The notes: generated from the letters alone by a model not told the origin. 64,000 bases of DNA from Leadbettera azotonutricia ZAS-9 (GCF_000214355.1 NC_015577.1:1287121-1351120); one strand, 5' to 3'. Shown: positions 26-19,685, counted from the first letter of the stretch. A program made the numbers and translations.

Positions 26-1294
26 ATGGCCAATAAAAGAGGAATAATTTTTCTGCTTTCAATTTTGATATTCCCGGTCCTTCTTTTTTCCCAGGAAGAT
101 CCTGATTTTGATCCTGAGCCCGAGCTGCCTCCGGCCATGGATCAGGCGCCGGCTGTGCCCGAAACAAATCCCGATTCTACTGCTTTCCGCATTCAGGGGG
201 CGGAGGGCGCCCTGAATTTTATCCAGCGTCTGTCATGGGAGAAGGCAGTGTACGCTTCCCGCTACGAGATAGTCGTGCAGGTGAAGCGGGTAAACACTTT
301 TGTCGAAGTAATGCGGTACATAGTGGAAGAAAATTTTGTGGAAATTTCAGTGCCCGCAGGCGAATACCGCTATAAAATTTCCAGCTTCAATGTTTTGGGC
401 CGCCTTGACAGGGAATTCCCCTGGGTTTCTTTCACTGTAATCCAGGCCCAGCAGCCAAGCGTCTTTAGCTATCTTCCCGAAAATTTTTACTTTGACCGTC
501 TCTCCCTCAGGATGATACGCATTGAAGGGGTCAACCTCCTCATGAATTCTGAAATTTACCTCCTCCGCCGCAATGAAGATCCCGCTGAGGAAGAAGCAAA
601 GATCATCCCCCGCGAAATAAGGCGCAACGACCTTGGGGAATTTGCGGACCTTTTTTTCTTTGAAGAAGACCTGGTCGCGGGCCTCTATGACATCATCGTG
701 AAGAACCCCGGAGGCCTTGAAACTGCCGCAGGGCCTTTCGGCATTTCGGTGGCCAAGCCTTACGATATCAATGTATCGGGAGCTTATGCCCCTATGGTAA
801 AGCTCTACGGGAATACCGCCTATGTTATCGAGTCTGCGGCTATCCCCCTGGGTTTTGGGGCAAGGGGCAGCTTTGTCCCTTTTAAGTGGGACATAGGTTT
901 TTTGGGGGTAGAGGCGAACCTTAACTGGGCATATTTTTCCATGGATTCTGAAGATCCCAACGGCCGCCCTGTCAGCACCAGGGCAAGCATGCTCAGCTTC
1001 CATGTGGGCCCCCTCTACCAGTACTGGTTCAAAAAGAACGTTCTGGCCCTTAACGCCCGCGCCGGCCTGGGCATAAGCAGCCTCCTCAATTATCATTTCG
1101 AATACGCCGATACCGGCGCGGCGTCAGAGTCTCTAAACTCTGCGTTTTTTTCCGTTGCCGTAGGCGCATCGGTTCAATATTTATTTTACAACCAGATCTT
1201 TGCCGAAGTAGGCATTGATTTCATGCACGCTGCCGCTTCGGACCTTCCCATGGGTTTCCTCCGATTTGCTTTAACCGCTGGATGGCAGTTCTAA
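26..1294 (+). CDS. Outer-membrane beta-barrel protein with N-terminal FN3/IPT-like domains
   Basis: First gene of the exopolysaccharide operon. The ATG at 26 is chosen over the in-frame ATG at 8 because AAGGA (14-18) lies 7 bases before it and the protein then begins with a clean signal peptide (MANKRG, hydrophobic stretch, LLFSQ). After an acidic Pro-rich linker come a fibronectin-III-like segment (about residues 45-140, with a GEYRYKISSFN strand) and an IPT/TIG-like segment (about 150-245, with GLYDIIVKNPGG). The last 170 residues alternate polar and aromatic residues and end in WQF; a terminal aromatic is typical of outer-membrane barrels. It abuts the CotH-like gene with no gap. Possible role: outer-membrane port or anchor for the polymer, in place of BcsC/AlgE; this is inference. 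No known family was recognised with certainty. Confidence 0.75.
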   Translation: MANKRGIIFLLSILIFPVLLFSQEDPDFDPEPELPPAMDQAPAVPETNPDSTAFRIQGAEGALNFIQRLSWEKAVYASRYEIVVQVKRVNTFVEVMRYIVEENFVEISVPAGEYRYKISSFNVLGRLDREFPWVSFTVIQAQQPSVFSYLPENFYFDRLSLRMIRIEGVNLLMNSEIYLLRRNEDPAEEEAKIIPREIRRNDLGEFADLFFFEEDLVAGLYDIIVKNPGGLETAAGPFGISVAKPYDINVSGAYAPMVKLYGNTAYVIESAAIPLGFGARGSFVPFKWDIGFLGVEANLNWAYFSMDSEDPNGRPVSTRASMLSFHVGPLYQYWFKKNVLALNARAGLGISSLLNYHFEYADTGAASESLNSAFFSVAVGASVQYLFYNQIFAEVGIDFMHAAASDLPMGFLRFALTAGWQF

Positions 1295-2839
1295 ATGGAA
1301 AAGATATTGCCGTTTTTACTGTTGCTGGGAGCAGCGTTCTCGGGATGCAGCAATGGCATCTACGTTCCCCCGGAAGAGCCGCCGTCAGGGGCCGAAGTTT
1401 CCGGGCGGTTTCGGGAACACCTGAATGACGATTTCACTGTCGATTTAGGATTTGAAAGCCATCTCCCCATTGTTGTGGTTGATACCCAGGGGGAATCCTT
1501 TGAACTGACCCGGTATTGGAATAGTGAAAGTGGGTATGCCGTGCCAATTCCCGGGGCGAAACTTTACATGGCAAGCGTTATCTCCGTCTATGACGCCGGC
1601 GCCGCGCTTAATAAGATCACCGATACCCCCGCATACCAAACCGATGCCCATATAAGGCTTTCTCTTGAACCTTTGGCGCCTTTTGACCCGGTGGAAAAAG
1701 TGGACTACCAGATAAATCTGCGGGATCAGGGCGGAAACGACAAAAAACTTGCCCTGCTGGGCATGAAAAGCCGCAGCGAATGGATACTGCGAGGCAACTC
1801 AAGCGACGGATCACTGATCCGGAATTATCTTGCCAGGGAGGTTTCTAAACAGGTAATGCATAATACTCCGGATTTGCGTTTTTGTGAGCTTTTAATTAAG
1901 TCTACCGGAGGCTACGAATACAGGGGAGTGTATACCTTATGCGAGACTGTGGGCGAGGGGGAAGGTCTGCTTGATTTGGACGGCAATTTGCCGCCCTTCA
2001 GGAAAAAGCTTGAGAGAGTTTTCGCCGGGAGTCAAGGATCAGTAAGTTATATCACCTGGCGCAGCCCCTACAATTCAGAATCGATATTTTTAAACACCTA
2101 CGCCATGAATGAAGGTTTTGCCGATAACGGATTTGAATTGATATATCCGTTCAAAGAGCTTTCCAGAAACGATCTTGAAAAAATAGAAGAAAATATCAGT
2201 CAAGCCGAGCAGGTTTTGTATTCCGACATTCCTGTTGTTTATGTGAATTACCCGAAATATATTGATGTGGATTTTTTTGTTGATTACTTTATAATAAATG
2301 AATATTTTATGAACTACCGTATCGGCTATTCAGGTGTGTATATTTATAAAAGTCCTTACGGGAAAATCCGAGTCGGCGTTCTGAACGATAACCTTTCCAG
2401 TTTTGATAATGACAAAAATCTGTCCGCTGATCCTGGCAGGACAATGTTTGCCGAAACTCCTTGGTTTATCCGGTTCATCAGAGATAAGGCGTTTCTGCAA
2501 AAATTGGAAAGCCGCTATTCCCTGCTCAAGAGGGGTGTTTTGTCCGACGTGAATATGATTTCACTGGTTGACGGTATCGCCGAATTTCTTGAACCTGCGG
2601 CGGAACGGGATTGGTATCGCTGGGGCGAAAATTATTCGTCGGGCAGTTTCAGCGCCGAACTTATCAAAATCAAATATATGATGGTCCGGCATAACGCGGT
2701 TATCGGCGACGCCATTCGGCGCATGGGCTGGGAAGAAAACCTGATGGATAGTTCCTACAGTAATCTCCGTTCGTCGTTGTATTTTTTTGGTTTTGTGGCC
2801 TTGTTTGTACTGTGCGTCCGCATCGGAAGGTATCATTAA
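1295..2839 (+). CDS. CotH-family lipoprotein with C-terminal membrane anchor
   Basis: Resembles the CotH (spore-coat H protein kinase-like) family: a strand with W-I-L-R-G-N followed by a helix SLIRNYLAREVSKQV, then a hairpin with EYRGVYTLCET. The N-terminus is a lipoprotein signal with lipobox FSGC. Where active CotH kinases carry a W-D-F-(N/D) metal-binding motif this protein reads L-N-D-N (N364-N366), so it may be non-catalytic. Unusually it ends in a hydrophobic helix (about residues 490-510, SSLYFFGFVALFVLC) followed by a basic tail, giving a periplasmic domain tethered at the C-terminus, the same topology as BcsB of cellulose synthase. It directly precedes the synthase gene with a 15-base gap containing a GGGGGGAG ribosome site. 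Role as a BcsB substitute is inference. Confidence 0.75.
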   Translation: MEKILPFLLLLGAAFSGCSNGIYVPPEEPPSGAEVSGRFREHLNDDFTVDLGFESHLPIVVVDTQGESFELTRYWNSESGYAVPIPGAKLYMASVISVYDAGAALNKITDTPAYQTDAHIRLSLEPLAPFDPVEKVDYQINLRDQGGNDKKLALLGMKSRSEWILRGNSSDGSLIRNYLAREVSKQVMHNTPDLRFCELLIKSTGGYEYRGVYTLCETVGEGEGLLDLDGNLPPFRKKLERVFAGSQGSVSYITWRSPYNSESIFLNTYAMNEGFADNGFELIYPFKELSRNDLEKIEENISQAEQVLYSDIPVVYVNYPKYIDVDFFVDYFIINEYFMNYRIGYSGVYIYKSPYGKIRVGVLNDNLSSFDNDKNLSADPGRTMFAETPWFIRFIRDKAFLQKLESRYSLLKRGVLSDVNMISLVDGIAEFLEPAAERDWYRWGENYSSGSFSAELIKIKYMMVRHNAVIGDAIRRMGWEENLMDSSYSNLRSSLYFFGFVALFVLCVRIGRYH

Positions 2840-2854
2840 AGGGGGGAGCGGTAT

Positions 2855-5314
2855 ATGGTTAAGATTGGCGCCTATATTCTATCCAGGTTTGATGTGCTTC
2901 TTAAGTCGGTAAACAAAAGCAGGTCTTCTCTAAAAAACCTGGTGTTTGTCGCGACTATTATCTCCACAGCTGTTTACCTTATATGGCGGATGTTTTTTAC
3001 CCTTCCCTGGCAATACGGAGCCGCGTCTATTATCGCCGGCCTCCTTATGCTCGTATCTGAAATTTTGTCTACCCTGCAGGCATTGGACAAATTCAGCAGT
3101 GTAAAAAAAGGTTTTGAACCTCCGCTTCCCACAATTCCTGATGAATGGTTCTGCGATGTGGACATATTCATTGCGACCCATAATGAATCGGCGGAGATCC
3201 TTTTCAAGACTGTCAACGGCTGTACTCATATGGAGTATCCCGATAAAAACAAGGTTCACGTTTACCTCTGTGACGATGGCAATCGGTCTGAAATAGCCGC
3301 CCTCGCCAAAGAATTGGGAATCGGTTATTTCGGCCTCGCAAGGAATAAGCTGCTCAAAGCAGGCAACCTGAATAACGCTATGCGTCAAACCCATGCGCCC
3401 CTCTGCGTTACCTTCGACGCCGACATGATCCCTACCCGGTATATGCTCACAAAAACTGTCCCGTATTTTTATCTGCCCTTTATGAAGCAGCTTCCTGACG
3501 ACAGATGGATACTGCGCGAACTGGGCGAGATTGATCCCGATTACCGGATCGGTTTTATCCAGACGCCCCAGAGTTTTTATAACCCTGATCTGTTTCAGTA
3601 CAATCTCTATTCTGAAGGCCGCATCCCCAATGAGCAGGATTATTTCTTTAGGGAAATTAATGTCATTAGGAACGCTTCCAATGCGCCTATCTACGCTGGT
3701 TCGAATACGGTCATTTCTCGTATCGCTTTGGAGCAGGTTGGTTACATAGCCACAGGTACCATTACCGAAGACTTTGCCACGGGGCTCAAGATACAGCGCA
3801 AAGGCTGGATCACTTATGGTACCTCCACGCCGCTGGCTCACGGCCTCGCTCCCGATGATATCGAAAGTCTCGTCAAACAGCGGGAACGCTGGGGACGGGG
3901 GTGTATCCAGAGTTTGCAGAACATGAATATCGTCGGCATGAAAGACCTGCCCTTCCTGTCCAAGATAAGTTATATAAACTGTTATTTTTACTGGTGGTCC
4001 TTTTTGGCACGGTTCATATTTATAGCTGCCCCCATTTTGTTCGCGGTTTTTCATTTACGGATTCTGGTTTGTTCGGTACAGCAGTTTTTCATTTTTTGGC
4101 TGCCCTATTTTATCCTTTCCAGTATCACGTCAAAACTAACTGCCGGGGCAACCCGCAACCAGCACTGGAACGGTGTTATTGATACCATCATGTTCCCATA
4201 CCTGATGGTGCCTATCGTTAAGGAGGCCCTGGGGTTTAAGCTGGAGAAATTTGCCGTAACCAGAAAAGACAAGGCAACCGGCGAACAAAAATCTACGTTC
4301 TATTGGGCGCTGCCTCATTTGATGCTGCTGATATCATGCTTGGCCGCGCTCGGTATCTGCGTCAAGCTGACCCTTCAGTCGGCGACAATGTACAACATTG
4401 TCATGATGTACTGGCTTGTCATCAACAGCAAGAACCTGGTTCTGGCGATCTTTTTCATGATGGGGAGGAAAAATACCCGCAGTACAGAGCGTTTCTATGT
4501 TACTCTGCCCATAACAATTCACGGCGAATTCGGCGATATCCACGCCATGACAACAGATATTTCCGAGGAGGGGCTCGCCTTCACTATAGACAGGCCGGAA
4601 TTTATTTCCCCCGATACTGATTTGAGCCTGATTCTGGAAGCTCCCCCCTATACGGCTAAAATGGTAGTCCGGGTACTCCATATAGATAACAGAAACAACA
4701 ATGCCTGGAAATACTGCGTCCGCATCCTCACCCTTGACCGATATAATATCCGGCAGTATTTTCAGATTATTTATGATCGCCACCATTCCCTGCCGGATAA
4801 AATCGCCGAAAACTGGAGCCTCTATGACGATTATCAAATACAGCTTAACAAGCGATCTTCACTCCAGATTAACGCTCAAAGGAAACTGCCTCGTGTCGAG
4901 TTGAGTGCCATCGCCGCCCGTTCCGACGGGAGTGTGTGTATGGTGACAAGTTTTAATTACTATTACTTAAGCTTCAGGTTTTTCTCTCCCTGGCCGGAAG
5001 GCGATGACGAGGATGAGGTGAGGGCGCGGAGGAACAGGCCCGCCTGTGAGATTTTTGACGAAGCATATATGGAATTTGAGGGATATAATAATCTTCCGTT
5101 TCATATTGCCATAGAAAACAAGCTGCCTGGCGGGGATATACTGTTTTCAGTCATTAATTGGAGGACCCTTCTCAACAACAAGGATTACCCGTCCCTGATA
5201 GACAAGTGGGTGGCAGGAGTCAAAATGGAAGCCCTTATCCGGGGTGAGCGTAGTCTTCCCGAACTTCCGCCTGCCGACGAATATGCGGAGATATTGGAAG
5301 AGGCTTTTGTATGA
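2855..5314 (+). CDS. bcsA: Cellulose synthase-like GT2 with PilZ domain (BcsA type)
   Basis: Processive family-2 glycosyltransferase that would polymerise a UDP-sugar and pass the chain through its own membrane channel. All signature residues are visible: DD at 140-141, DxD at 188-190, TED ending at D306, and QRERW at 342-346. Membrane helices flank the GT domain (two near residues 28-75, several between 370 and 535). The C-terminal part carries a PilZ c-di-GMP-binding domain with RSTER (542-546) and DISEEG (568-573), so the enzyme should be switched on by c-di-GMP. About 150 extra residues follow the PilZ domain. Family knowledge: this GT2-plus-PilZ layout is that of BcsA. The exact product (cellulose or another beta-glucan) cannot be told from sequence. 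No bcsB, bcsC or bcsZ homologue is adjacent. Confidence 0.9.
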   Translation: MVKIGAYILSRFDVLLKSVNKSRSSLKNLVFVATIISTAVYLIWRMFFTLPWQYGAASIIAGLLMLVSEILSTLQALDKFSSVKKGFEPPLPTIPDEWFCDVDIFIATHNESAEILFKTVNGCTHMEYPDKNKVHVYLCDDGNRSEIAALAKELGIGYFGLARNKLLKAGNLNNAMRQTHAPLCVTFDADMIPTRYMLTKTVPYFYLPFMKQLPDDRWILRELGEIDPDYRIGFIQTPQSFYNPDLFQYNLYSEGRIPNEQDYFFREINVIRNASNAPIYAGSNTVISRIALEQVGYIATGTITEDFATGLKIQRKGWITYGTSTPLAHGLAPDDIESLVKQRERWGRGCIQSLQNMNIVGMKDLPFLSKISYINCYFYWWSFLARFIFIAAPILFAVFHLRILVCSVQQFFIFWLPYFILSSITSKLTAGATRNQHWNGVIDTIMFPYLMVPIVKEALGFKLEKFAVTRKDKATGEQKSTFYWALPHLMLLISCLAALGICVKLTLQSATMYNIVMMYWLVINSKNLVLAIFFMMGRKNTRSTERFYVTLPITIHGEFGDIHAMTTDISEEGLAFTIDRPEFISPDTDLSLILEAPPYTAKMVVRVLHIDNRNNNAWKYCVRILTLDRYNIRQYFQIIYDRHHSLPDKIAENWSLYDDYQIQLNKRSSLQINAQRKLPRVELSAIAARSDGSVCMVTSFNYYYLSFRFFSPWPEGDDEDEVRARRNRPACEIFDEAYMEFEGYNNLPFHIAIENKLPGGDILFSVINWRTLLNNKDYPSLIDKWVAGVKMEALIRGERSLPELPPADEYAEILEEAFV

Positions 5315-5508
5315 ACGACGTTTTGCCTCAAACTCTTGAACCTGTACGGTATTTTCTCGAAACCCTGAATTCGGATCGTTGGTTTTGGGTTTTCCGTATC
5401 GCTTTCGCCGTCTGTATGGTTTTTTCGGCGGTGATTTTTATTTTTTTCAGGAAACGGCTTCCCAATGATGAGGAACTAGCTAGAAAGAAAAAAAAGAAAA
5501 AGATATAA
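5311..5508 (+). CDS. Small single-pass membrane protein with lysine-rich tail
   Basis: A 65-residue protein whose ATGA overlaps the stop of the synthase gene, indicating translational coupling. It has one hydrophobic helix (about residues 24-46) followed by a charged segment and a run of six lysines near the C-terminus, which predicts N-out/C-in topology by the positive-inside rule. No family was recognised. The coupling suggests a small subunit of the synthase complex, comparable in size to BcsF of enterobacteria, but no sequence similarity is claimed. Confidence 0.7.
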   Translation: MNDVLPQTLEPVRYFLETLNSDRWFWVFRIAFAVCMVFSAVIFIFFRKRLPNDEELARKKKKKKI

Positions 5509-5537
5509 TAAGGCAGAGCTACAAAAAGGGGTAATGA

Positions 5538-6980
5538 TTGCTATTTTCCAGCCTACTGTTTTTATTTTATTTTCTTCCCATTACACTGGCAGTAAACTAT
5601 TTTTTGTCCTTTAACCGGCTTTTGCAAAATATATGGCTGTTAGCTATGAGCCTTTTTTTCTACGCCTGGGGCGAGCCGCTCTATGTATTGCTGATGATTT
5701 TTTCGATAATGGTGAACTGGGCTTTTGGTCTCGTCGTTGATAAAGTGAAGGATAATAAAAAGCAGGTCAGGATTACTGTAATCACGACCTGCGTCGTCAA
5801 CCTTGCGATCCTGTTTGTTTTTAAATACCTTGGCTTTGTGGTGAGTAATATCAATATGGTCGCAGGCCGCAATCTGATAAATTTTACCAGTATGGCCCTG
5901 CCTCTGGGTATTTCGTTTTATACTTTTCAGTCCATGTCCTATGTCATTGATATCAGCCGCAATGACGCCAAGGTGGAAAAGAACCCTTTTTACGTAGGCC
6001 TTTATGTCGCGTTTTTTCCTCAGCTCGTCGCCGGACCCATCGTCCGCTATACGGATGTCGCCGATCAGATCCTTAACCGCCGTTTTAACGGGGCTATTTT
6101 TTTTGAAGGATGCTGCCAGTTTATTTCAGGCATGGGGAAGAAAGTGCTTATCTCCAACGCTATGGCCATGATCGCGGATAATATTTTCAACCTTTCCGCT
6201 ATGGGCCACCATGTTTACAATGTCCCTGTAACTCTCGCCTGGCTGGGTCTCGTCGCTTATACCCTGCAGATCTTTTTTGATTTTTCTGGTTATTCCGAAA
6301 TGGCCATAGGTTTGGGCAGGATGTTTGGTTTTGAATTTTTGATGAACTTTAATTACCCCTATATCGCCAAATCAATTGTTGATTTCTGGCGCCGCTGGCA
6401 TATTTCTCTTTCCACGTGGTTCAAAGAATATGTATATATCCCTCTTGGCGGTTCGCGGATGGCTAATAATGATTTGATGGTCCGCAACACCTTCGTGGTG
6501 TGGCTTTTGACCGGCGTTTGGCACGGCGCCGACTGGACCTATATTCTTTGGGGTCTGTGGCATTTCGTGTTCATTATTTTTGAACGCCTCATCAAGTGGG
6601 ACAACTTGAAGATCCCCAATTTCCTGAGGCATGTTTATACCCTGCTGGTGGTAATGATAGGCTGGCTTTTCTTTCGGGCTATTGATTTCTATCAGTTCGC
6701 GCAGTATTTCTTGAACCTGGTGGGGATGAATAACAATGGGTTTTACAGCGACACTGCCTTCATGCTTCTGCGTGAATATTGGGTCTTTTTTCTTTTTGCA
6801 ATTATATCATCAACGCCGGTTATCAAGAACTTTGGCCGTTTAATGAGACTGGAGGTGATGGGTGTTTGGAATTATTTGTATACTTTTTTTATGCCCATTG
6901 GTTATATAACGGTGTTTATTATTAGTATAACCTTCCTGGCCAAGGGGAATTACAACCCCTTTATTTACTTTAATTTTTAG
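5538..6980 (+). CDS. MBOAT family O-acyltransferase (AlgI/WssH-like)
   Basis: Polytopic membrane protein of 480 residues, the usual length for AlgI/DltB-type MBOAT proteins, expected to move acetyl groups from the cytoplasm across the inner membrane for polysaccharide O-acetylation. The family hallmark LTGVWHGADWTYILWG is present with the invariant histidine at H329; the conserved LPLGISFYTFQSMSYVID and FPQLVAGPIVRY segments also match. The start is a TTG at 5538 placed 7 bases after AGGGG; no in-frame ATG gives the conserved N-terminal SSLLFLFYFLP. It sits between the small membrane protein and the DHHW acetyltransferase, the same pairing found in alginate and acetylated-cellulose (wss) operons. 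Confidence 0.93.
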   Translation: MLFSSLLFLFYFLPITLAVNYFLSFNRLLQNIWLLAMSLFFYAWGEPLYVLLMIFSIMVNWAFGLVVDKVKDNKKQVRITVITTCVVNLAILFVFKYLGFVVSNINMVAGRNLINFTSMALPLGISFYTFQSMSYVIDISRNDAKVEKNPFYVGLYVAFFPQLVAGPIVRYTDVADQILNRRFNGAIFFEGCCQFISGMGKKVLISNAMAMIADNIFNLSAMGHHVYNVPVTLAWLGLVAYTLQIFFDFSGYSEMAIGLGRMFGFEFLMNFNYPYIAKSIVDFWRRWHISLSTWFKEYVYIPLGGSRMANNDLMVRNTFVVWLLTGVWHGADWTYILWGLWHFVFIIFERLIKWDNLKIPNFLRHVYTLLVVMIGWLFFRAIDFYQFAQYFLNLVGMNNNGFYSDTAFMLLREYWVFFLFAIISSTPVIKNFGRLMRLEVMGVWNYLYTFFMPIGYITVFIISITFLAKGNYNPFIYFNF

Positions 6981-6990: not shown

Positions 6991-8307
6991 ATGATAGAAA
7001 TTGACAGCAAGGCAAAAGAAGCAAAACAGATTCTTCTCTATGAGATGGCCCGTCGGCAGACAGGTATTCTGCTTGTTGTTATGATGAGCATATTCAGCCT
7101 GGTAAACGGGGTATGGCAATTCGTCCCTACGCTCTGGACAGGCATTGTATGGTCCCTGCAAAACGCAACAGGCCCGACCGAATTGAAAGGATTTTTATCC
7201 GCCGTAGAAAGCAACCTTGGCGGCGATCTTTTGGGTAAAAACCAGTTTATTGAATTTTATGCATTCATGGAAAAGCTTCAGGGCAAGGAAGAATCGGACA
7301 ATTTCTGGGCGGTCAAGAATAAAGCCGGAGATATCATGTATTCCAATTTTTATCCCGATAATGTGGACAGCCTTGGTGAATGTGTCCGCCGGATTTGGCG
7401 CTTGAAACAAACCGTGGCCCAAACCGGCACCAAAGTATTTTTCGTCATGCCCCCAACCCTGTACATCCGGGGAAAAGAAGACTTCTCCCCCGGCCTCCCT
7501 TACGGCGACTATAACTACCGGGAGGACACATTCCTGTACTGGCTCGATCAATTCGGCATAGACAATCTCGATCTGCGGGAGAGTCTTAAAGATAACAACA
7601 TTGCGCCGGAAGACTATTTTTTCCATACCGATCATCATTGGCGCCTAGAAACCTCCTTTGCCGCATTTGGAGATATTGTTGCGTGGCTGGATGAAACTTT
7701 CGGCGTAGACCTCGATCCGGATCGCTTTTATACTGATATATCGAACTACTATCAACGAACCTATGAAAACGCTTCCTTGGGTTCCTTTGGCAGGAAGACG
7801 GGTATTATTTTTTCCGGTTTGGATGATTTCACCGTGCTATGGCCCAAATTCGACGACCAGACGGATTTTACCTATTATCCCCGTTTTCTCCTGCCCTATT
7901 CCCAGCCCATAAGCGGCCCATTTACGGAATCCCTGTTGTATCCGCGCCTTATTTCCACTGAAAACCCGTATATAAACGATTTTTACGGTGTGTACCAAAG
8001 CGGTATAAAGAGCCATGAAAAAATCATCAACAATAAAAACCCCGATCTCCCCAAAATGCTGCTTATCCGCGATTCTTTCAGTCTTCCTCTGGGCGTTTTC
8101 ATGGCGCCTTTGTTCAGTCAGATAGACTGTATTTGGCCTGCCAACAGCGATAATTTCTTTTTTGACATCGACGCTTACTTGCAAGAGAATCATTTCGATT
8201 TTATAATGATCGAAATGTACCAGGAAAATCTGATAACGAAAAATTTTTACTATAACCCAAATTCCCTGCCGAACGAGCCGTTTTCGGGAGGTATGGAGCA
8301 AGAATGA
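6991..8307 (+). CDS. AlgJ/AlgX-like DHHW-motif SGNH O-acetyltransferase
   Basis: Periplasmic acetyltransferase of the AlgJ/AlgX/WssI group, which takes acetyl from the MBOAT partner and places it on the polymer. An N-terminal membrane helix (about residues 22-44) is followed by the SGNH-like domain. The DHHW motif is D214-H215-H216-W217 in the context FFHTDHHW, and the nucleophile block is D361-S362-F363 in LLIRDSFS. The C-terminal DFIMIEMYQENL strand is also typical. The start codon follows the MBOAT stop by 10 bases with only a weak AGG ribosome site, so translation is probably coupled. The stop overlaps the next ATG in ATGA. Confidence 0.9.
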   Translation: MIEIDSKAKEAKQILLYEMARRQTGILLVVMMSIFSLVNGVWQFVPTLWTGIVWSLQNATGPTELKGFLSAVESNLGGDLLGKNQFIEFYAFMEKLQGKEESDNFWAVKNKAGDIMYSNFYPDNVDSLGECVRRIWRLKQTVAQTGTKVFFVMPPTLYIRGKEDFSPGLPYGDYNYREDTFLYWLDQFGIDNLDLRESLKDNNIAPEDYFFHTDHHWRLETSFAAFGDIVAWLDETFGVDLDPDRFYTDISNYYQRTYENASLGSFGRKTGIIFSGLDDFTVLWPKFDDQTDFTYYPRFLLPYSQPISGPFTESLLYPRLISTENPYINDFYGVYQSGIKSHEKIINNKNPDLPKMLLIRDSFSLPLGVFMAPLFSQIDCIWPANSDNFFFDIDAYLQENHFDFIMIEMYQENLITKNFYYNPNSLPNEPFSGGMEQE

Positions 8308-11188: not shown

Positions 11189-12136
11189 ATGATAATAGAA
11201 AAAACAACTAAAATAGGTATGGCGTTCTTTATGCTCCTGATAACTCTGTTAATGGACTGTTCATGTATTAAGCATGTCGAGTCATTCCCCGAAAACGAAG
11301 GCACTGGCGCTTCAGAAGATTACCAACTTATTTGGGAGGATAACTTCGACGGGTCGAGCATTGATACCAGCAATTGGATAGTGGTGCGGTGGGGCGCAGA
11401 TACTGTTCCTGCAGGGGAGCTGGAAATTTATCAGCCCTCCAATGTAACAATGGAAGAAGAACCTGTTTCCGGGAATTCCTGCATGGTCTTGACTGCAAAA
11501 ATTGATACCAATAAAAGCGGAAAGGGGCAGATCACCTCCGGACGGGTTGACTCCTACGGAAAAAGGCAGTTTCAATACGGAAAGATAGAGGCAAGCATTA
11601 AACTGCCCAAAACAGCGAACGGTTTATGGCCTGCTTTCTGGATGCTCGGTACAGATGAAATGGAAATTGGCTGGCCCATGTGCGGCGAAATAGATATTAT
11701 GGAAATGGGAAGTTCCTATGCTTATAAAAATAATACCCAGGAAACCCTAAATTTTGGCACGATACATTATGGCCCTAGAGAAGAGAACTGGGAGCATCCC
11801 ATGATATACCAATGGTACAATAATGAGTACAGCCTTCAGGATGGTTCCTTCCACCTCTATACGCTAATATGGGATGAAAACAGGATTAATATGTTTCTGG
11901 ATATGGACAGATTTCCGGACCGGGCGCCGTATTTTTCGCAGGCCATAAATTTTGTTGACAAAGAAGGCTACAATTTGGCTGATTTTTTCAGGAAACCGTT
12001 TCGCATAATATTTAATCTTGCTGTTGGCGGAGAGTATCCTGATATTTATGAAATTGATGGTATTAAAGCTTTGAATGCGACGAATAATTTCGAAGCTAAA
12101 ATGTATATCGACTTTGTCCGGGTATTGCAGAAATGA
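11189..12136 (+). CDS. GH16 family beta-glucanase lipoprotein
   Basis: Glycoside hydrolase family 16 (laminarinase/lichenase group), which cuts beta-1,3 or beta-1,3-1,4 glucans with retention. The catalytic motif is E167-I-D169-I-M-E172, with nucleophile E167 and acid/base E172, preceded by the conserved GLWPAFWMLG. The C-terminal strand KMYIDFVRVLQ is also family-typical. The N-terminus is a lipoprotein-like signal ending near MDCSC, so it should face the periplasm or surface. Being inside the operon it probably edits or releases the polymer, the task BcsZ (GH8) has in cellulose operons, and it hints that the polymer may contain beta-1,3 linkages. GAGGGGG precedes the ATG; the stop overlaps the next ATG. 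Confidence 0.92.
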   Translation: MIIEKTTKIGMAFFMLLITLLMDCSCIKHVESFPENEGTGASEDYQLIWEDNFDGSSIDTSNWIVVRWGADTVPAGELEIYQPSNVTMEEEPVSGNSCMVLTAKIDTNKSGKGQITSGRVDSYGKRQFQYGKIEASIKLPKTANGLWPAFWMLGTDEMEIGWPMCGEIDIMEMGSSYAYKNNTQETLNFGTIHYGPREENWEHPMIYQWYNNEYSLQDGSFHLYTLIWDENRINMFLDMDRFPDRAPYFSQAINFVDKEGYNLADFFRKPFRIIFNLAVGGEYPDIYEIDGIKALNATNNFEAKMYIDFVRVLQK

Positions 12137-14439
12137 ATACTGTAATTGAAAACGAAAACAAAGGCCCCGGATGGATAGACTTTGCCAAAGTATTCTCTGT
12201 TTGGTTTTTAATTACGGGCAGTTTTGCCATATCGCAGAAGTATTTCCTTTTTGTCACTGTATTTGTCGTTCCGGTTTTTTTCTTTCTTTTCGGTTTTAGT
12301 GAAACAGATGGAAAGTCAATAAAGCAAACGATTATAGAAGGTCTTAAATTTTTTTTATTGCCTTATGTATTATTATATCTGACGAATTATATAATAAATA
12401 TCATTGTATATTTTTTAAGCCGTGCAACAAACCCTGCCGTAAGTCCGGATAGTTTTGATATTTTTATTAAACCCCTTATTGGGATGCTGTTGGCGAGCAC
12501 TGTAAAATCACCCTTTTCAACGTTTGCTGTTCATTCCCTTTGGTTTTTGCCGGCCGTGTTTATTGTAAGGGTTTTTCATGCAATAATATACAAATTTATA
12601 AAATTAAAAATTTATCTGTACTTATTGTTTATTCTTGTCTTCTATGGTATTACTTCCTTGTCGTATTATTTATTCAATATACAGGGACAGCGAATTGCTT
12701 TTTCCATTGACTGCGCCTGCGCAGCCATGCCGTTTTTCACCGCTGGGTATATAATAAGGAAGTATGGAATTTTAATTCCTTTTATTAGGCATGATTTGCA
12801 GGGAAAATCTTTTAATTTTCTTATTTCGATAGTTTGTTTCGGTTTTATTGTCATTTTTCTGCAATTTATGGGCGAATTCAATTTCGGAGACTTTATTTTT
12901 GGAAGCAGCATCCCTCTTTATTATTTAGCCGGATTTATGGGAATAGCGGCAGTAGTTTCGTTTTCTTTAACTTGCAGCGGAGATTTTGGAATTTCGTATT
13001 TTCTTTCGCAGGGGCTCCTGATAGCTGCTGCTTTTTATATAAAGGTTATCGGGTTACTCAATACCGTTGTAGGACAGGATTATGAATTATTCTTGATGTC
13101 AAAATTTATATTGTCATTTCTAATACTGCTTTACTCTTCCATGGCGGTTTTATTTTGGAAATATTTGAAAGGGGAGAGGGAACTAATACTGTATTTAAAA
13201 ATTCTAATACGAAATAAAATTTTTTATAACGCAAAAATGGTTGTTTTCGCTGTTTCGAAATTATTCACTGCGTTGTTTGTAATTATCCGCGAAAAATTGG
13301 TAAAACCGTCAGGGGAAGATCACGGCGAAGAGACCCTTCCGGAAGACAGGTTCCTCTGGGTTGATTTCGCACGGGCTGCAGGTTTATTGATCTTTATTCT
13401 TGGGAATATGCAGGGCATTAATTTGTTAAAGAACTTCATTTTTGCCTTTGTATTACCGCTTTACTTTTTTTTAAATGGTTTTCTTGAGAATAACCGGCGT
13501 TCATTTAAGGAAATGGTACTGAACAGCATAAGAACCCTGCTGATCCCGTATGTGATTATATATGGATGCTTAATAGTATATTATTTTGTTTTTAATGTTA
13601 TTGCAAATATTGGAAATCTGAATCCTGATAGAGTTTTGTTTGAATTTATTTTACAGCCTGTTTTAAATATGATCTTGGTTACAAATCAAGTTGGTGGTTT
13701 TTTCGGCTCCCAAGCTATACCACTGTGGTTCCTTATAGCGTTATTCGAAATCCGTATTGTGCACCATGGTTGTATTGCGTTAATTAAACGAAAATTGTCA
13801 TTTTATCCATTAAGTATAATTATCGCCGTTGGGGTTTTTTGGGGGCTGTTTAGGTTAAGCATTGTGTTGATTCGTCTGCCTTTTGCCCTGGACTGCGCCT
13901 TTTTGACGTATCCTTTTTTCGCGCTGGGCTTTATAGTCAGACAAAAGAAAGTAATCGAGCTGATAAATTATTATGATAGCAAAAGCGCTGCATTAAGAAT
14001 TATTTTGCCGATTGTTGGTTTTGCCCTGACAGCTGTTGTCAGTGCAATAAACGGATTAAATGATATTTCCTGGGGTGTTTTTGGATTAAATCTTCCGATG
14101 TTTTATTTTTCCGCATTTTTCGGTATTGCCTCTGTTGTTTTTATTTCATTGTTATACAAAAAAGAAATGCCGGAGATTACCCTTGTTTCGATGGGTTCTT
14201 TGTTAATTATGTCTTATTATTTTCCTGCATTGTATTATACGATTCATGTTTTTGACTCCCTTAATATTTACTTTGGTCTTTTTGCGCAAATATGCATTTC
14301 TGTGTTGATGCTATTTTTATCACCTGCGCTTTTATTGTTCTTTTTCCGGTATTTTCCGGTATTGACAGGTGGTAAAAATAGATTACTTAAGCAAAGGGAA
14401 CAGATAAACAGAATGATGGAGGTACTACCGCGTGAATAA
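12133..14439 (+). CDS. Tandemly duplicated acyltransferase-3-like membrane protein
   Basis: 768 residues made of two homologous halves of about 380. Each half starts with the acyltransferase-3 opening (GWIDFAKVFSVWFLI near residue 10; LWVDFARAAGLLIFI near residue 408), then a phenylalanine-rich second helix (FFFLFGF / LYFFLNGF), an LLPYVLLYL / LIPYVIIYG helix and a HSLWFLPAVF / IPLWFLIALF helix. In the fucose-4-O-acetylase-like branch the first helix ends in Gly-His; here the positions are G29-S30 and G424-N425, so both halves lack the usual histidine. It may be a carrier or scaffold rather than an enzyme. ATGA overlap with the GH16 gene. Domain family likely; function unknown. Confidence 0.75.
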   Translation: MNTVIENENKGPGWIDFAKVFSVWFLITGSFAISQKYFLFVTVFVVPVFFFLFGFSETDGKSIKQTIIEGLKFFLLPYVLLYLTNYIINIIVYFLSRATNPAVSPDSFDIFIKPLIGMLLASTVKSPFSTFAVHSLWFLPAVFIVRVFHAIIYKFIKLKIYLYLLFILVFYGITSLSYYLFNIQGQRIAFSIDCACAAMPFFTAGYIIRKYGILIPFIRHDLQGKSFNFLISIVCFGFIVIFLQFMGEFNFGDFIFGSSIPLYYLAGFMGIAAVVSFSLTCSGDFGISYFLSQGLLIAAAFYIKVIGLLNTVVGQDYELFLMSKFILSFLILLYSSMAVLFWKYLKGERELILYLKILIRNKIFYNAKMVVFAVSKLFTALFVIIREKLVKPSGEDHGEETLPEDRFLWVDFARAAGLLIFILGNMQGINLLKNFIFAFVLPLYFFLNGFLENNRRSFKEMVLNSIRTLLIPYVIIYGCLIVYYFVFNVIANIGNLNPDRVLFEFILQPVLNMILVTNQVGGFFGSQAIPLWFLIALFEIRIVHHGCIALIKRKLSFYPLSIIIAVGVFWGLFRLSIVLIRLPFALDCAFLTYPFFALGFIVRQKKVIELINYYDSKSAALRIILPIVGFALTAVVSAINGLNDISWGVFGLNLPMFYFSAFFGIASVVFISLLYKKEMPEITLVSMGSLLIMSYYFPALYYTIHVFDSLNIYFGLFAQICISVLMLFLSPALLLFFFRYFPVLTGGKNRLLKQREQINRMMEVLPRE

Positions 14440-15172
14440 ATATTTTTGCATAAAACTGTCAATTTTTATAACAATCTTTGTACTATTGGCCGCATGTTGC
14501 AGCATGGCGAAAAATGTTGGCTATAAGTATATCCCCATCCCGGAAAATTCACAAAAAAAGGTCCTTACGAGGCCTATTGTTTGTCTTGGAGACAGTCTTA
14601 CGGAAGGATATGTCTCTTCAATGGTTGGTATTGTGGATCGGGAACATTCATATCCGGCATTTTTACAGGAAAAGGTCAATGTTCAGGTTGTTAATTCCGG
14701 GATAAGCGGCAATACAACCAAGGAAACGTTGGATAGGATTGAAAAAGATGTTCTTGCGTACAACCCCGATATGGTTATTGTGTTTCTTGGAACAAACGAC
14801 TTTTTTTTAAGGGATCTTCCTTTGGAAGAAACTCAGGAAAACTTACAGAAGATCCTGGATAAAATCAATGACGGCGACAGGCTGATATTCCTTGTAAAAT
14901 TTTATTCAAACCAAATACTGGAAAGGTTTATGAGCTGGAAGGAATGGTCTGTAAGGAGGTGGCAAAGCACAATTAATAAATATGATAGTATGTTTGAAGA
15001 ATTGGCGCATAAAAATAACGCAGTATTGATTAGCGGAGTCTGGGAGGGAATTGATATTGAGGCGGATATGCCCGATTCGGTTCATCCAGATACGCATGGT
15101 TATTGGCTTATTGAAGAAAATATCTTTTTAGCTGTAAAATCATACATCTCTGAAGAAAATCTGATAGAATAG
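14432..15172 (+). CDS. SGNH/GDSL esterase lipoprotein (TesA-like)
   Basis: Single-domain SGNH hydrolase with all blocks: block I CLGDSLTEG with nucleophile S55, block II NSGISGNTT, block III FLGTNDFF, and block V DSVHPDTHGY with D215 and H218. The N-terminus is a lipoprotein signal (ILLAACCS region). The GTG start at 14432 overlaps the previous gene by eight bases and is placed 9 bases after GGAGG. In this operon a polysaccharide deacetylase role, removing acetyl groups placed by the MBOAT/DHHW pair, is the natural guess, as proposed for WssF-like proteins; lysophospholipase or arylesterase activity is possible. Confidence 0.88.
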   Translation: MNKYFCIKLSIFITIFVLLAACCSMAKNVGYKYIPIPENSQKKVLTRPIVCLGDSLTEGYVSSMVGIVDREHSYPAFLQEKVNVQVVNSGISGNTTKETLDRIEKDVLAYNPDMVIVFLGTNDFFLRDLPLEETQENLQKILDKINDGDRLIFLVKFYSNQILERFMSWKEWSVRRWQSTINKYDSMFEELAHKNNAVLISGVWEGIDIEADMPDSVHPDTHGYWLIEENIFLAVKSYISEENLIE

Positions 15173-15181
15173 GAGGATAGA

Positions 15182-15976
15182 ATGAAGTTGTATAAGATTG
15201 TCTTTGCCGGACTCTGCGTTTTAACCTTATTCACTGTAAGCACATGCGAGTTTGAGTATCAGGACGAATCCGTTTTTCCCATTCCTGTTGTTTCAAAAAA
15301 TGACCCTGCAGTCTCGGAAAGTGCAGGTAAATATTCTGATAACGATTCAAGGAAAGATATACACGACTCGTTTAAAAATATGGCGGGTGATTTTCAGTTC
15401 ATTTTATTGGGGGATGATATCATAGCATATTGGGACTGGGACGATATGCCAAACAGTTCCAGTTATTATAATTTTGGAATTTCCGGAGATGATACGGCAA
15501 ATTTAATCTGGCGGCTGAAAGATGGTGAATTATCAGAAAGCATAACGGCCGATTATGTTGTACTGCATATCGGGGTTAATAATGTGAAAAATTGGCAATC
15601 TGCCGCATCAGTCGCGGCGGGAATCGGCGAAATAATCAAATTAATCAATAAAAAATTGCCCTATACGCAAATTTTGCTGTTCTCTGTCCTGCCGTATTAC
15701 GATACAGCATGGGATGACGAAGAAGAATGGGAATGGGATATAGCGTCATTTATGCTGTCAAATATTCAATCCGTGAATAATATTATTTCAAAATACGATG
15801 GGTTCTACAATACCTCTTATATTGATGTGGCTTCGTCTTTCTTTGCAGACGGAGTTTTTTATGATGAATTATTTGAACCTGATGATGGCTACTATTCAAC
15901 GCCGACAGCGGAAGGATACGGTTATTTATATGATGAGATCTTGGCTGTTTTATCGAACAGTGGTGATGATGACTAA
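15182..15976 (+). CDS. SGNH-fold lipoprotein lacking catalytic Ser and His (pseudoesterase)
   Basis: Clear paralogue of the next gene (shared NLIWRLKDGELSES / HVIWRLKNGEFPRD and AAGIGEI segments), but the active site is gone. Block I reads LLGDDIIAY, with D79 where the serine should be; block III reads IGVNN; block V reads DDGYYSTPTAEGYGY, without the D-x-x-H-P motif. The fold core is otherwise intact and the reading frame is open, so this is a conserved inactive homologue rather than a decayed gene. The N-terminus is a lipoprotein-like signal ending VSTC. GGAGG precedes the ATG. Likely role: carbohydrate-binding or regulatory partner of the active paralogue (inference). Confidence 0.8.
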   Translation: MKLYKIVFAGLCVLTLFTVSTCEFEYQDESVFPIPVVSKNDPAVSESAGKYSDNDSRKDIHDSFKNMAGDFQFILLGDDIIAYWDWDDMPNSSSYYNFGISGDDTANLIWRLKDGELSESITADYVVLHIGVNNVKNWQSAASVAAGIGEIIKLINKKLPYTQILLFSVLPYYDTAWDDEEEWEWDIASFMLSNIQSVNNIISKYDGFYNTSYIDVASSFFADGVFYDELFEPDDGYYSTPTAEGYGYLYDEILAVLSNSGDDD

Positions 15977-16835
15977 AACAATCAGGCGCATTACCAGAAG
16001 TATTTTTTTTCCTTCTCTGTTATTGTTCTCCCTGTCATGCGGCAGTACGGTCAAGTATATGGATTTAAAGCCCGACTCTGCTGAGTATATCGCCGATAAA
16101 GACAGTCCTTTTATAGTAACTTGGGAAGGAGATTCTGCCATTACGCCCGAGTCTCGTCTCGACGAAGATGAGAACTGGTGGATGGTTAAACACCATGCTA
16201 TTGTAGACAGTTTTAAAATATACAAAGAGTATGATATAATATTTATTGGCGACAGCATCACGAGCTATTGGGAAAATGATAAGTATTATGACCGGGAATG
16301 GGGCCTTTGGACCTTCGGAAAAAAATACTGGGATCTTCTTAAAAAAGCCGGATACAGGATTAAGGATATGGGGTTTCATGGAGATCAGACTCAACATGTC
16401 ATTTGGCGCCTGAAAAATGGAGAATTCCCAAGGGATATTATATGTAAAACCGTTGTTTTGCTTATCGGAACAAATAACGCCAGTACTGAGAAATCAATTG
16501 CGGCCGGTATAGGAGAAATCGCGTCCATTATCCACGAAACCAGTCCAATGACAAAAATCCTGATATTGTCGATTCTTCCCAGAAAGGATTCAAATCCCTA
16601 TTCAGACCAGGATATAAAAGTACAGGAGGTCAATAAAATTCTAAAGACTTACGATGGATATAACAATATCCAGTTCGGCGATATATACGATGCGTTTCTC
16701 GACCCGGATACTCATGAGATAAACACTGGTCTGTACAATTATGATAATTTTGGCTGGATTCACCCAAACGAAAAGGGGTACGGTATCGAACTTAAAGAGC
16801 TGAGTAGGCTTTTAAATTTGGGGCTTGATCTTTAA
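15966..16835 (+). CDS. SGNH hydrolase lipoprotein (PAF-acetylhydrolase-like)
   Basis: Intact member of the SGNH family closest in layout to PAF-acetylhydrolase-like esterases. Block I is FIGDSITSYW with S97, block II GFHGDQTQ, block III LIGTNNAS, block V WIHPNEKGY with H266. The start is placed at the ATGATG at 15966/15969, overlapping the previous stop by eleven bases, because this gives a lipoprotein signal (RSIFFPSLLLFSLSC); an open frame extends further upstream but has no signal peptide. Expected acetyl-esterase in the periplasm or on the surface, with the preceding inactive paralogue as possible partner. Confidence 0.85.
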   Translation: MMTKTIRRITRSIFFPSLLLFSLSCGSTVKYMDLKPDSAEYIADKDSPFIVTWEGDSAITPESRLDEDENWWMVKHHAIVDSFKIYKEYDIIFIGDSITSYWENDKYYDREWGLWTFGKKYWDLLKKAGYRIKDMGFHGDQTQHVIWRLKNGEFPRDIICKTVVLLIGTNNASTEKSIAAGIGEIASIIHETSPMTKILILSILPRKDSNPYSDQDIKVQEVNKILKTYDGYNNIQFGDIYDAFLDPDTHEINTGLYNYDNFGWIHPNEKGYGIELKELSRLLNLGLDL

Positions 16836-16862
16836 TCCACAGACCGGCCTAATGGAGGAAAT

Positions 16863-17468
16863 ATGAAAACTGGTTATAATTTATTTTTACCATTAGTTTT
16901 GGCTCCGGCGCTGCTTTTACAGGCGGCCTGCACCGGATCGCCCACGCCTAAATCGACTGACCAAAACCCTGTTTTGATTGATATTATCGGTTTGAACATA
17001 AAACAGGATTTGGCCGGTTCAACACTCGTTTTTAGTGAGGCGCTGGTTTATAATTATACGGCAGACAGCCTTATAGCGTTGAAATTTAAACACGAGACTA
17101 TAACGTTTGTGCAATATTGGGATAGAGAGGCACGAATCGCCTTTGTAAATGCGGTAAACTCCTATGCCGGCGATTATGGGCAGAAACGTTTTCCTGTAGG
17201 GCTTGGAGCTTCCGGGGTTTATGGAAGCTTCAGGAGTTTTATCCAATGGCAGACCTTTTCGAGGGCGGGTATATATGAAGCTTATCCCGGTATAACTATG
17301 GGATGCCGGTTTATAAATGAGCGGGATCCCTATTTTACGCTGACTCAGTTTTCAGAGAGGGAAGTGACCCATCGGAATTGGAACATAGAATCTCCACAAA
17401 TATCCTTTTGGTTCACTCTCTCCCAGGCCAGGGCGCTGTCGAATATTTTCAATAAATATATTGAATAA
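16863..17468 (+). CDS. Lipoprotein of unknown function
   Basis: 201 residues with a textbook lipoprotein signal (LLLQAAC, then TGSPTPKS linker). The mature part is a compact beta-rich domain with no recognised family; notable segments are FVQYWDREARIAFVNAVNSY, GASGVYGSFRSFIQW and ESPQISFWFTLSQA. GGAGG lies before the ATG. It follows the esterases by 27 bases and precedes the repeat lipoprotein by 12, so it belongs to the same transcription unit. Confidence 0.75.
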   Translation: MKTGYNLFLPLVLAPALLLQAACTGSPTPKSTDQNPVLIDIIGLNIKQDLAGSTLVFSEALVYNYTADSLIALKFKHETITFVQYWDREARIAFVNAVNSYAGDYGQKRFPVGLGASGVYGSFRSFIQWQTFSRAGIYEAYPGITMGCRFINERDPYFTLTQFSEREVTHRNWNIESPQISFWFTLSQARALSNIFNKYIE

Positions 17469-17480
17469 AGGGGTATTATT

Positions 17481-19685
17481 ATGAAGCTGGTTTTAATAAT
17501 GTTTCTTTCGATTGCATTTTTTATTTCCTGCGGTTCAGCCTCTAATTATGTAGCGCATCCTGAAACCCCTCCTGAGGAGGAATCCGTTGTTGTTTCCGGG
17601 ATACTCATTGTCAATCCTCAGCCAGTAAAAGATCTTTATCCGGCTGCGGATTCCGACGCAGTAATGCGGAACAATACGTTAAGTTATAAGTGTTATTATT
17701 TCTCCATGAACGATTTTGATTATGAATATCCGGGAAATAACCGCATTAATTACCAGCTAATAACAGACAGTGATATTGCGGGGCATGCGAGACTGGAAGC
17801 CTATCCGGGCAAATATTTGATTTATATAGAAGCTTATAACCGTATTGAACAGAATCCGGTGGCCTGGGGATTAGCCCTTACGGAAGCGATTACAGGTGAG
17901 GTTGCTGTAGTTACTGTCGAAATGTTGAACGCCGCTGCGCTGACACCGGAGGAAGATGTTTTAGCCGAATATGTGTACGATCCGTCGCTCTTTGTCGGCA
18001 AGGGCTTGTCCGGCGCCGTTTTAAGTTTTCTTTATTATGGTGACGCCTGGACTATGGGCTGGGGGCCGATGGTCTCGGGGGTAGACCTTCTGGCGGCCGA
18101 AGAAGATGGAAATACGGGGAAGGTTTCCCTGGAGCCCGGTATTTATATGATAAGCTATGTTCTGTCCCAGTCTGTAAGCAGTTACTATGAAGGCCGCTTG
18201 AACAATATTATTTATGTCTACCCGGAACAGAAAATCGAGTCCGTTATTAATACCGAAAATATCTACAGTCTGGTTTATGATGATTTAAAACTGATATGGG
18301 GAAATCTTGATATTATCATCCCCAATTTCGGCTATACCATAAATGAAGCCTATGTAAGCGCAGATCCGGAAACTGTTAACGCAAGTGTAGTTATTAAAAA
18401 CCCGCCGACAAAAAATTTTCCCTGGCAGATGCTGGTTCCTGTTGACACAGAAATCATAGATTTTTCCATATATTTGTCGCTGTTTGACAGCAAGGGAACG
18501 GAAAAATTATTAAGTAAAAACTATCCCGCTCTGGACGTAAACACCCCTCCTAATATGGACATTCGGGTTATAACCGGATTTCTCACTGTGATACCGCCTT
18601 CTTACGGGTATGCATTAAGTAATATCTATATAAATACCGATCCGGAAGGCATGAACAGTACAGCAGAAGTTATAAACCCCGCCCGGGGCTTAAATGTGTG
18701 GGAAGCAGTTGTTCCGGCGGATGCCCAAACAATTGATTTGACCGTTACGGCGATTTTAAAGGACAGCGCCGAAGTTGAAAAATGGCTTGTTAAACCCTAT
18801 CCCCAGTTGTCCCTTAACAGCCCGTTAAGCCTGAGTATAAAAATAATAAGCGGTACGCTGGATCTTTCCGTACCCGCCGGATATGCCGTTACCGAAGTGT
18901 TCGTTGGTGCTGATCCGGAGGGTTCCAATTCCGCCACTCAGGTGATGGAGCCAAAACTGGGACGGAATGAATGGGAAATGGTAGTTCCCGCGGATTTTAC
19001 GCGGGGGGATTTCACGTTATCTCTTGTCCTTACAGATCTCGATGGTGTGGAAAAATGGGTCAATAGATCCTGGGAGAATATTAATGCTCTGTATTCCGTT
19101 CCCCTGGATATAAAAGTGATAAGCGGTATGTTGGATTTCGCGGTTACTTCGTCCGGGGGTTATACGGTTGACTATGTCGTGATAGGCGCCGATCCTGACG
19201 GGATCAATGTGTCAACAGGGTTTGAAAGTCCTTCCCCGGGGAAATACCGGTGGGAGCTGACACTGCCTATGAATATGAACGAAACGGATATTTCTGTCTT
19301 TGTCCAGGTACACAACCGATCCGGTGAAGAAACATGGCTCAGCAGAAGTTTTGGCAAACCGGACATCAGCAAGCCATTTGATCTGCAGGTTTCCGTCATT
19401 ATGGTTTCAGGTTACGACGATCTCAAAGGACGCGTCGTTGTATGGGGCGATTCGGGCCTGGCAACCGGTATTGCCGGCGAAACATTTTCAGGACAGATTG
19501 TGAGCAATCCCTCGTCTTCTTTTATTTTTAAGCCGGGCAGCCTCAAACTTGTAAAATCCTCCGATGGTTCTACCATAGTTGTAATTCCTGACGCTGACAT
19601 AGGCGAGAATGGGGAATTTAAGTTTGTGCTGCCTAACAGCGATACAAAGGTGGTCTGTGAATTTATTGACGAAAAAACCCGGTGA
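17481..19685 (+). CDS. Lipoprotein with four tandem repeats of about 93 residues
   Basis: Lipoprotein signal (LSIAFFISC). Residues about 30-265 form an N-terminal module with GIYMISYVLSQ and IIYVYPEQ, resembling the IYPGM module of the downstream surface lipoproteins. Four tandem beta-rich repeats follow (from about 268 to 650), each with a core of the type V-x-x-DPE/DG-x-N: VSADPETVN, INTDPEGMN, VGADPEGSN, IGADPDGIN, spaced 270-285 bases apart, each ending with a W-x-x-x-(V/L)P strand. No known domain name could be assigned. It is the last gene of the operon-like run and converges on the FAD oxidoreductase with a 15-base gap. Confidence 0.75.
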   Translation: MKLVLIMFLSIAFFISCGSASNYVAHPETPPEEESVVVSGILIVNPQPVKDLYPAADSDAVMRNNTLSYKCYYFSMNDFDYEYPGNNRINYQLITDSDIAGHARLEAYPGKYLIYIEAYNRIEQNPVAWGLALTEAITGEVAVVTVEMLNAAALTPEEDVLAEYVYDPSLFVGKGLSGAVLSFLYYGDAWTMGWGPMVSGVDLLAAEEDGNTGKVSLEPGIYMISYVLSQSVSSYYEGRLNNIIYVYPEQKIESVINTENIYSLVYDDLKLIWGNLDIIIPNFGYTINEAYVSADPETVNASVVIKNPPTKNFPWQMLVPVDTEIIDFSIYLSLFDSKGTEKLLSKNYPALDVNTPPNMDIRVITGFLTVIPPSYGYALSNIYINTDPEGMNSTAEVINPARGLNVWEAVVPADAQTIDLTVTAILKDSAEVEKWLVKPYPQLSLNSPLSLSIKIISGTLDLSVPAGYAVTEVFVGADPEGSNSATQVMEPKLGRNEWEMVVPADFTRGDFTLSLVLTDLDGVEKWVNRSWENINALYSVPLDIKVISGMLDFAVTSSGGYTVDYVVIGADPDGINVSTGFESPSPGKYRWELTLPMNMNETDISVFVQVHNRSGEETWLSRSFGKPDISKPFDLQVSVIMVSGYDDLKGRVVVWGDSGLATGIAGETFSGQIVSNPSSSFIFKPGSLKLVKSSDGSTIVVIPDADIGENGEFKFVLPNSDTKVVCEFIDEKTR

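Follow-up and report, generated by a model that had tools for sequence, protein, structure and literature searches.

Gene content of the locus

The window analysed here, 64,000 nucleotides of the Leadbettera azotonutricia ZAS-9 genome (C1:1287121-1351120 of the complete 3.86-Mb sequence), opens with a run of fifteen genes on the + strand (window 8-19685), after which the next gene lies on the opposite strand. The run probably directs synthesis of an acetylated, glucose-based surface polymer, and in place of the membrane partner that such a synthase usually has there appears to be a membrane-anchored protein, CotH, that has a spore-coat kinase fold without an active site. The spacings between consecutive genes are, in order, 0, 15, -4, 29, 10, -4, 17, 15, -4, -8, 9, -8, 27 and 12 bases. 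The features are as follows.

C1:1282349-1287156 (L001:3229-8036), leading into the operon: cyclase and FecR-like genes
8..1294, +: signal-peptide protein, barrel 1 (weak outer-membrane protein beta-barrel match at the C-terminus)
1295..2839, +: CotH-fold protein, predicted lipoprotein with a C-terminal transmembrane helix, predicted pseudokinase (Pfam, structure model, residues)
2855..5314, +: BcsA-type GT2 polysaccharide synthase with PilZ domain (Pfam, motifs)
5311..5508, +: 65-residue single-helix membrane protein (ATGA overlap with the synthase)
5538..6980, +: MBOAT O-acyltransferase, H329 (Pfam MBOAT 2.1e-28)
6991..8307, +: AlgX/DHHW-type SGNH acetyltransferase with N-terminal anchor (Pfam ALGX 3.5e-8, DHHW motif)
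8304..9650, +: signal-peptide protein, putative outer-membrane barrel 2, candidate exit pore (by inspection)
9668..11173, +: 501-residue polytopic membrane protein, about 10 helices, no family match
11189..12136, +: GH16 glucanase, laminarinase-type EIDIME site, lipoprotein-like N-terminus (Pfam GH16 1.4e-12)
12133..14439, +: Acyltransferase_3 protein, domain in two copies (Pfam Acyl_transf_3)
14432..15172, +: SGNH/GDSL hydrolase 1, GDS present (Pfam, motif)
15182..15976, +: SGNH/GDSL protein 2, GDD instead of GDS (Pfam, motif)
15969..16835, +: SGNH/GDSL hydrolase 3, GDS present, likely start 15969 (Pfam, motif)
16863..17468, +: 201-residue lipoprotein-like protein, no family
17481..19685, +: 734-residue repetitive surface protein, no confident family

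A sequence-only reading of this DNA had described a fifteen-gene operon at 26-19685, and the genes that it named (CotH, the BcsA-PilZ synthase, MBOAT with H329, the DHHW protein, GH16 and three SGNH proteins) were all found on one strand. The fifteen co-directional genes stand, the first of them starting at about base 8. Directly upstream lie two further genes: a class III nucleotide cyclase with a HAMP domain (PF00211, 1.5e-11) and then a 975-residue protein, whose FecR-like label is our own reading and which had no Pfam match. Both join the run through small overlaps, and the operon is therefore larger than fifteen genes. The cyclase raises the possibility of a second-messenger input other than cyclic di-GMP (c-di-GMP). 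A like order of upstream genes, barrel 1, CotH and synthase was found at loci L008 and L015, and homologues of barrel 1 (55-62% identity) lie immediately before CotH in two Treponema metagenome-assembled genomes (MAGs). Homologues of the 65-residue protein occupy the same place in a Treponema MAG and a planctomycete, and adjoin CotH in one Eubacteriales locus (L090).

The synthase and its polymer

Cellulose synthases studied in Gram-negative bacteria require BcsB; many Firmicutes synthases are without it, and its replacement there is unsettled. The window synthase matched GT2 (4.4e-19), Cellulose_synt (2.6e-9) and PilZ (6.8e-9) in Pfam, as well as the solved BcsA structures 7lby (1.9e-68) and 4hg6 (3.7e-55), and its motifs include D140, DxD188-190, TED304-306, QRERW342-346, FAVTRK466, RSTER542-546 and DISEEG568. 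The catalytic, gating and PilZ RxxxR residues were conserved in all rows of an alignment of related synthases (31 CotH-type, 12 CcsB-type and 35 c2-type, classes described below), the only exceptions among the conserved motifs being two conservative V/I changes in FxVTxK; the D/NxSxxG motif was likewise present in every row. The BcsA E371 residue, considered as a further marker, was dropped, as it varies freely among relatives. The synthase keeps its c-di-GMP motifs and may respond to c-di-GMP. Ten GGDEF matches were found in the genome, and no known RNA family, c-di-GMP riboswitches included, reached gathering score in the window, the upstream stretch or three relatives.

A profile search of the complete genome with PF03170 found no BcsB, an outcome that leaves the sequence-only reading unrefuted, and the same search was positive in E. 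coli and B. subtilis controls. Neither the BcsC TPR domain nor the BcsZ GH8 domain matched any operon protein in Pfam, the rest of the genome not having been searched for either. Alignment to RsBcsA begins at window residue 33, corresponding to RsBcsA residue 72, and the first BcsA helix is therefore absent from the window synthase.

By sequence the enzyme is kin of clostridial CcsA, a group in which BcsB and BcsC homologues are usually absent (PMC7710045); this kinship had not been remarked earlier. Identity to Firmicutes synthases was 38-49%, and the GT2 profile score was 1032 bits. The best 80 relatives from a genome scan came mostly from Lachnospiraceae, Clostridium and Paenibacillus, the nearest named ones being Treponema MAGs. 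The synthase was present in three of 200 genomes of the family and three of 393 sampled across the phylum, two of the latter three being GH5-GT2 fusions without CotH. The suggestion of a spirochaete-specific system is thus not borne out, most relatives being clostridial. The fusions, in which a GH5 cellulase and a BcsA-like GT2 form one polypeptide (L009:9309-12455 and L012:1-2609), sit in a chemotaxis neighbourhood in two Treponema-like genomes of the order, and RxxxR is lost in L009.

The polymer is likely a cellulose-like or mixed-linkage glucan, and the MBOAT protein with H329 and the DHHW protein fit its O-acetylation. The operon GH16 matched 5nbo best (4.7e-41), an entry named only as GH16, then the beta-1,3-glucanase 4crq (7.6e-34) and, lower, laminarinases, and the GH5 cellulases of clostridial loci point, by analogy, to a beta-1,4 linkage. 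GH5 itself is not in the operon; the nearest is a cellulase-like protein at 46474-48156 (- strand), about 27 kb off. A substrate is not readable from sequence with certainty, and a BcsA-like synthase could in principle make another hexose or a hexosamine polymer. We regard this as improbable, given that the top NCBIfam match was the UDP-forming cellulose synthase CelA (2.8e-106, below the equivalog cut-off) versus 3.9e-14 for PgaC, and given the GH5 cellulases of related loci and the beta-1,3-glucanase matches of GH16. The earlier description of the locus as an acetylated-glucan-type synthase operon, with no BcsB in the genome, is supported. The SGNH protein at 15182-15976 may be inactive because it has GDD at the catalytic GDS position; its gene is flanked on both sides by SGNH genes with GDS.

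Export may proceed through a barrel. Of the two barrels in the sequence-only reading, barrel 1 has the weak outer-membrane match given above; barrel 2 was recognised by inspection, had no Pfam match and gave, from two sequences, a structure model with a predicted local distance difference test score (pLDDT) of 29. Locus L017, from a planctomycete, has a TPR protein with an NfrA C-terminal domain immediately upstream of CotH.

CotH proteins linked to the synthase

Annotation of 82 related loci with profiles separated them by the partner that accompanies the synthase: CotH in 28, CcsB (CBM11) in 11, a polytopic protein termed c2 in 35 and none of the three in eight, several of which are cut by contig ends. 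No locus combined two of these partners. CotH lay directly upstream of the synthase within about 120 bases in 23 of the 28 CotH loci, so that the adjacency seen in the window is conserved in related genomes, and a C-terminal hydrophobic helix was present in all 31 CotH proteins examined, with a clear N-terminal one in 29. CcsB showed similar ends (C-terminal helix in 12/12, N-terminal in 10/12). The topology of CotH is BcsB-like; the phrase 'BcsB position' in the sequence-only reading is loose, since CotH precedes the synthase and CcsB follows it. Distances among CotH proteins correlated with those among synthases (Mantel r 0.80, 0 of 2000 permutations), as expected of a co-inherited pair. In a synthase tree built by a quick method, the CcsB rows formed one group (98), the c2 rows a nested group and the CotH rows all that was left; the window synthase grouped with those of two Treponema MAGs (100), on a long branch that makes the exact place of this group unsure.

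The 617-residue c2 protein was considered as a third BcsB analogue and rejected, being polytopic and without a C-terminal anchor in 35/35. The c2 loci usually carry a GtrA glycosyltransferase. This Paenibacillus-type architecture, in which a GtrA-linked glycosyltransferase and a GT2-PilZ synthase accompany c2, itself without a Pfam match (L036:8889-14142 and 34 similar loci), was not found described in the literature.

The window CotH matched the Pfam CotH family (1.4e-37) and has hydrophobic segments at 4-22 and 490-513. An AlphaFold2 model from 31 sequences (pLDDT 85.7) found Bacillus cereus CotH, 5jd9, in a fold search (Z 31.1 over 337 residues, root-mean-square deviation 3.0), the next family scoring Z 12; a sequence search against PDB gave only chance peroxiredoxin matches, and the A2 profile none. 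A continuous helix spans residues 452-513 of the model and takes in the C-terminal membrane segment. The window also encodes a second, large CotH protein (27230-30277, CotH domain about 29300-30238), and a third lies at C1:3138281-3139300; neither sequence, as read, has a hydrophobic-helix end.

The kinase sites of B. subtilis CotH, D228 and D251 (PMC7821199), correspond to columns 342 and 365, mapped through an own-genome CotH (L094) aligned to 5jd9, with NND on NFD and WDFD on WDYD; both in B. subtilis and across the family, a spacing of 23 residues separates the two sites. The window protein has R342 at the catalytic Asp site and SLEPL where the Gly-rich loop, RGN(S/T)S, is expected. Column 342 was Asp in 28 of 28 CotH proteins with DUF4956 in the locus, and R (window), E (L014), S (L015), a gap (L017) and F (L118) in those without it. 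The RGNSS-type loop followed the same pattern (Fisher p 4e-6, a value that ignores relatedness and reflects two lineages only), both features being lost in 5/5 CotH proteins without neighbouring VTC/DUF4956: three from treponemes and two from one planctomycete. We therefore predict from these residues that the window CotH is a pseudokinase, a loss not remarked in the earlier reading.

VTC occurred in 24 and DUF4956 in 25 of the 28 CotH-type loci. The usual clostridial order is VTC, DUF4956, CotH, synthase, often with MBOAT, a DHHW protein and a GH5 cellulase, and the pairing of synthase with a CotH whose kinase site is, by sequence, intact is widespread in clostridia. Neither VTC nor DUF4956 was found in the whole genomes of the window organism, G034 (an incomplete MAG) or G479; both are present in G024, the genome of L015, at another locus. 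Adjacent VTC and DUF4956 genes without CotH were seen at L120:5631-7028, in the Treponema MAG with a predicted-pseudokinase synthase-linked CotH. A planctomycete CotH that adjoins DUF4956 (L125) keeps the loop as RGLTS, its catalytic part lying beyond the contig. Because this protein retains the loop, the residue pattern suggests that loss tracks the absence of VTC/DUF4956 beside CotH and not the outer membrane as such.

A possible role for CotH in polymer synthesis

The predicted loss of catalysis, with fold, anchor and gene position kept, suggests a non-catalytic, synthase-tied role for CotH. No protein is a better candidate for the BcsB role, since CotH is the shared membrane-anchored extracytoplasmic protein of CotH-type loci and CcsB never occurs beside it in a locus. 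We therefore lean, with somewhat better than even confidence, toward an O-acetylated beta-glucan synthase whose membrane-anchored extracytoplasmic subunit is a CotH pseudokinase. Within this proposal the pseudokinase step is the firmer part and the physical partnership of CotH with the synthase the weaker.

The proposed system would be a synthase-dependent exopolysaccharide system of clostridial CcsA kinship that has been fitted to a diderm cell. The GT2-PilZ protein would polymerise a glucan (beta-1,4 or mixed 1,3/1,4) and extrude it across the inner membrane, with c-di-GMP opening the gating loop. CotH, anchored by its C-terminal transmembrane helix and, at the N-terminus, by a lipid or a helix, would contact the outer face of the synthase and, no longer a kinase in the window lineage, would fill the BcsB/CcsB role by completing the synthase in the membrane and receiving the chain; the one-helix 65-residue protein may replace the missing first helix of the synthase. 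The chain would then be acetylated by the MBOAT and DHHW proteins and trimmed by the SGNH and GH16 enzymes, and one barrel may let it out.

Several observations weigh against this proposal. The kinase fold (56-478) fills the CotH model, which has no separate carbohydrate-binding jelly roll as in BcsB/CcsB, and the protein carries no carbohydrate-binding module; D365, at the B. subtilis D251 site, is retained; and five loci have CotH elsewhere in the operon, away from the synthase. By sequence the loss of kinase residues amounts to one or two events, because it is confined to two lineages. In addition, a member of the wider kinship, RiGT2 of Romboutsia ilealis, makes mixed-linkage glucan in yeast without a partner and without c-di-GMP (PMC10374906), so that a partner may be dispensable.

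The RiGT2 result bears directly on the idea that the window synthase works alone, with CotH, the small protein and the barrels only shaping secretion or attachment. The absence of the first BcsA helix from the window synthase also, and of a BcsB-like neighbour from the c2-class synthases and the GH5-GT2 fusions, would fit this. RiGT2 is distant, however, the inner branch between the two measuring 3.6 changes per column, and it stands alone in its own genome (L115), whereas each CotH- or CcsB-type synthase has one transmembrane-anchored extracytoplasmic partner; we consider independent action of the window enzyme unlikely. RiGT2 resembles it in catalytic and gating motifs, in lacking BcsB and in the missing helix, and differs in having no CotH, MBOAT or DHHW around it and in its distant branch. 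Despite similar motifs, RiGT2 showed no c-di-GMP response in vitro (PMC10374906). A link between RiGT2 and CotH was considered and rejected, locus L115 having no partner.

CotH might instead be an accessory modifier. The clostridial VTC-DUF4956-CotH kinase would then phosphorylate a surface protein or the polymer, and the copy in treponemes would be a decaying or repurposed polymer-binding remnant. The same cassette lies beside pel operons, where regulation by phosphorylation has been suggested (PMC7112168), VTC and CotH accompany another GT2 in C. perfringens NELoc-2 (PMC2879425), and kinase residues are intact in the CotH-type loci where VTC and DUF4956 prevail. Against it, CotH still adjoins the synthase and keeps helix and fold at three treponeme and two planctomycete loci despite the loss of the kinase site and of the VTC/DUF4956 neighbours, and the window protein is not eroded, its full length and well-modelled fold suggesting selection for a non-catalytic function. 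Accessory modification is thus a tentative alternative that we rather doubt. Also doubtful, and a little more speculative, is a broader form of the subunit proposal, in which the kinase-fold CotH would be a true synthase subunit alternative to BcsB/CcsB that in VTC/DUF4956 clostridia also acts as an extracytoplasmic phosphotransferase, with the synthase or the nascent glucan as its target. In certain treponemes and planctomycetes it would have kept just the structural role.

Among the closest known systems is ccsZABHI, in which CcsB was proposed as an extracellular BcsB analogue (PMC7710045). Common to the two are related GT2-PilZ synthases, the CcsB-type rows falling in the same tree, an adjacent MBOAT and DHHW pair, the absence of BcsB/BcsC and a membrane-anchored extracellular partner. 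They differ in that a CotH-fold protein here replaces the CBM11-like CcsB (Pfam found no CBM11 among the operon proteins, and the CcsB profile had no match in the window), in GH16 rather than GH5 CcsZ, and in the added outer-membrane candidates and small transmembrane protein. BcsA-BcsB and the acetylated cellulose (wss) system of Pseudomonas also have a BcsA-type synthase, PilZ control motifs and acetylation genes; unlike them, the window genome is without detectable BcsB and the window operon without BcsC and BcsZ. The VTC-DUF4956-CotH cassettes of Gram-positive pel clusters and NELoc-2 likewise link CotH to an exopolysaccharide synthase cluster, with a different synthase, VTC and DUF4956 where the window genome has neither, and kinase residues that the window CotH lacks. 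The Bacillus spore-coat kinase (5jd9/5jda; PMC7821199) shares the CotH fold; the window protein differs in being membrane-anchored, predicted extracytoplasmic and without the catalytic Asp and Gly-rich loop.

Already known are ccs operons with CcsB, RiGT2 without a partner, CotH with polyphosphate polymerase and DUF4956 near pel, and CotH with VTC and another GT2 (PMC7710045, PMC10374906, PMC7112168, PMC2879425). In a literature search with limited coverage of subscription journals, we found no description of CotH paired with a BcsA-type synthase or of lineage-specific loss of kinase residues in synthase-linked CotH. For many clostridia, and for a few diderms, CotH offers one concrete candidate for the replacement of BcsB. 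The CotH proteins with intact and lost active sites, with and without VTC/DUF4956, form a natural experiment by which a structural role can be told from a catalytic one.

Beyond the operon (window 20933-23842 and L013/L001), InlB-type repeats occur in very long surface proteins downstream, and long repetitive proteins of similar kind lie upstream of it too.

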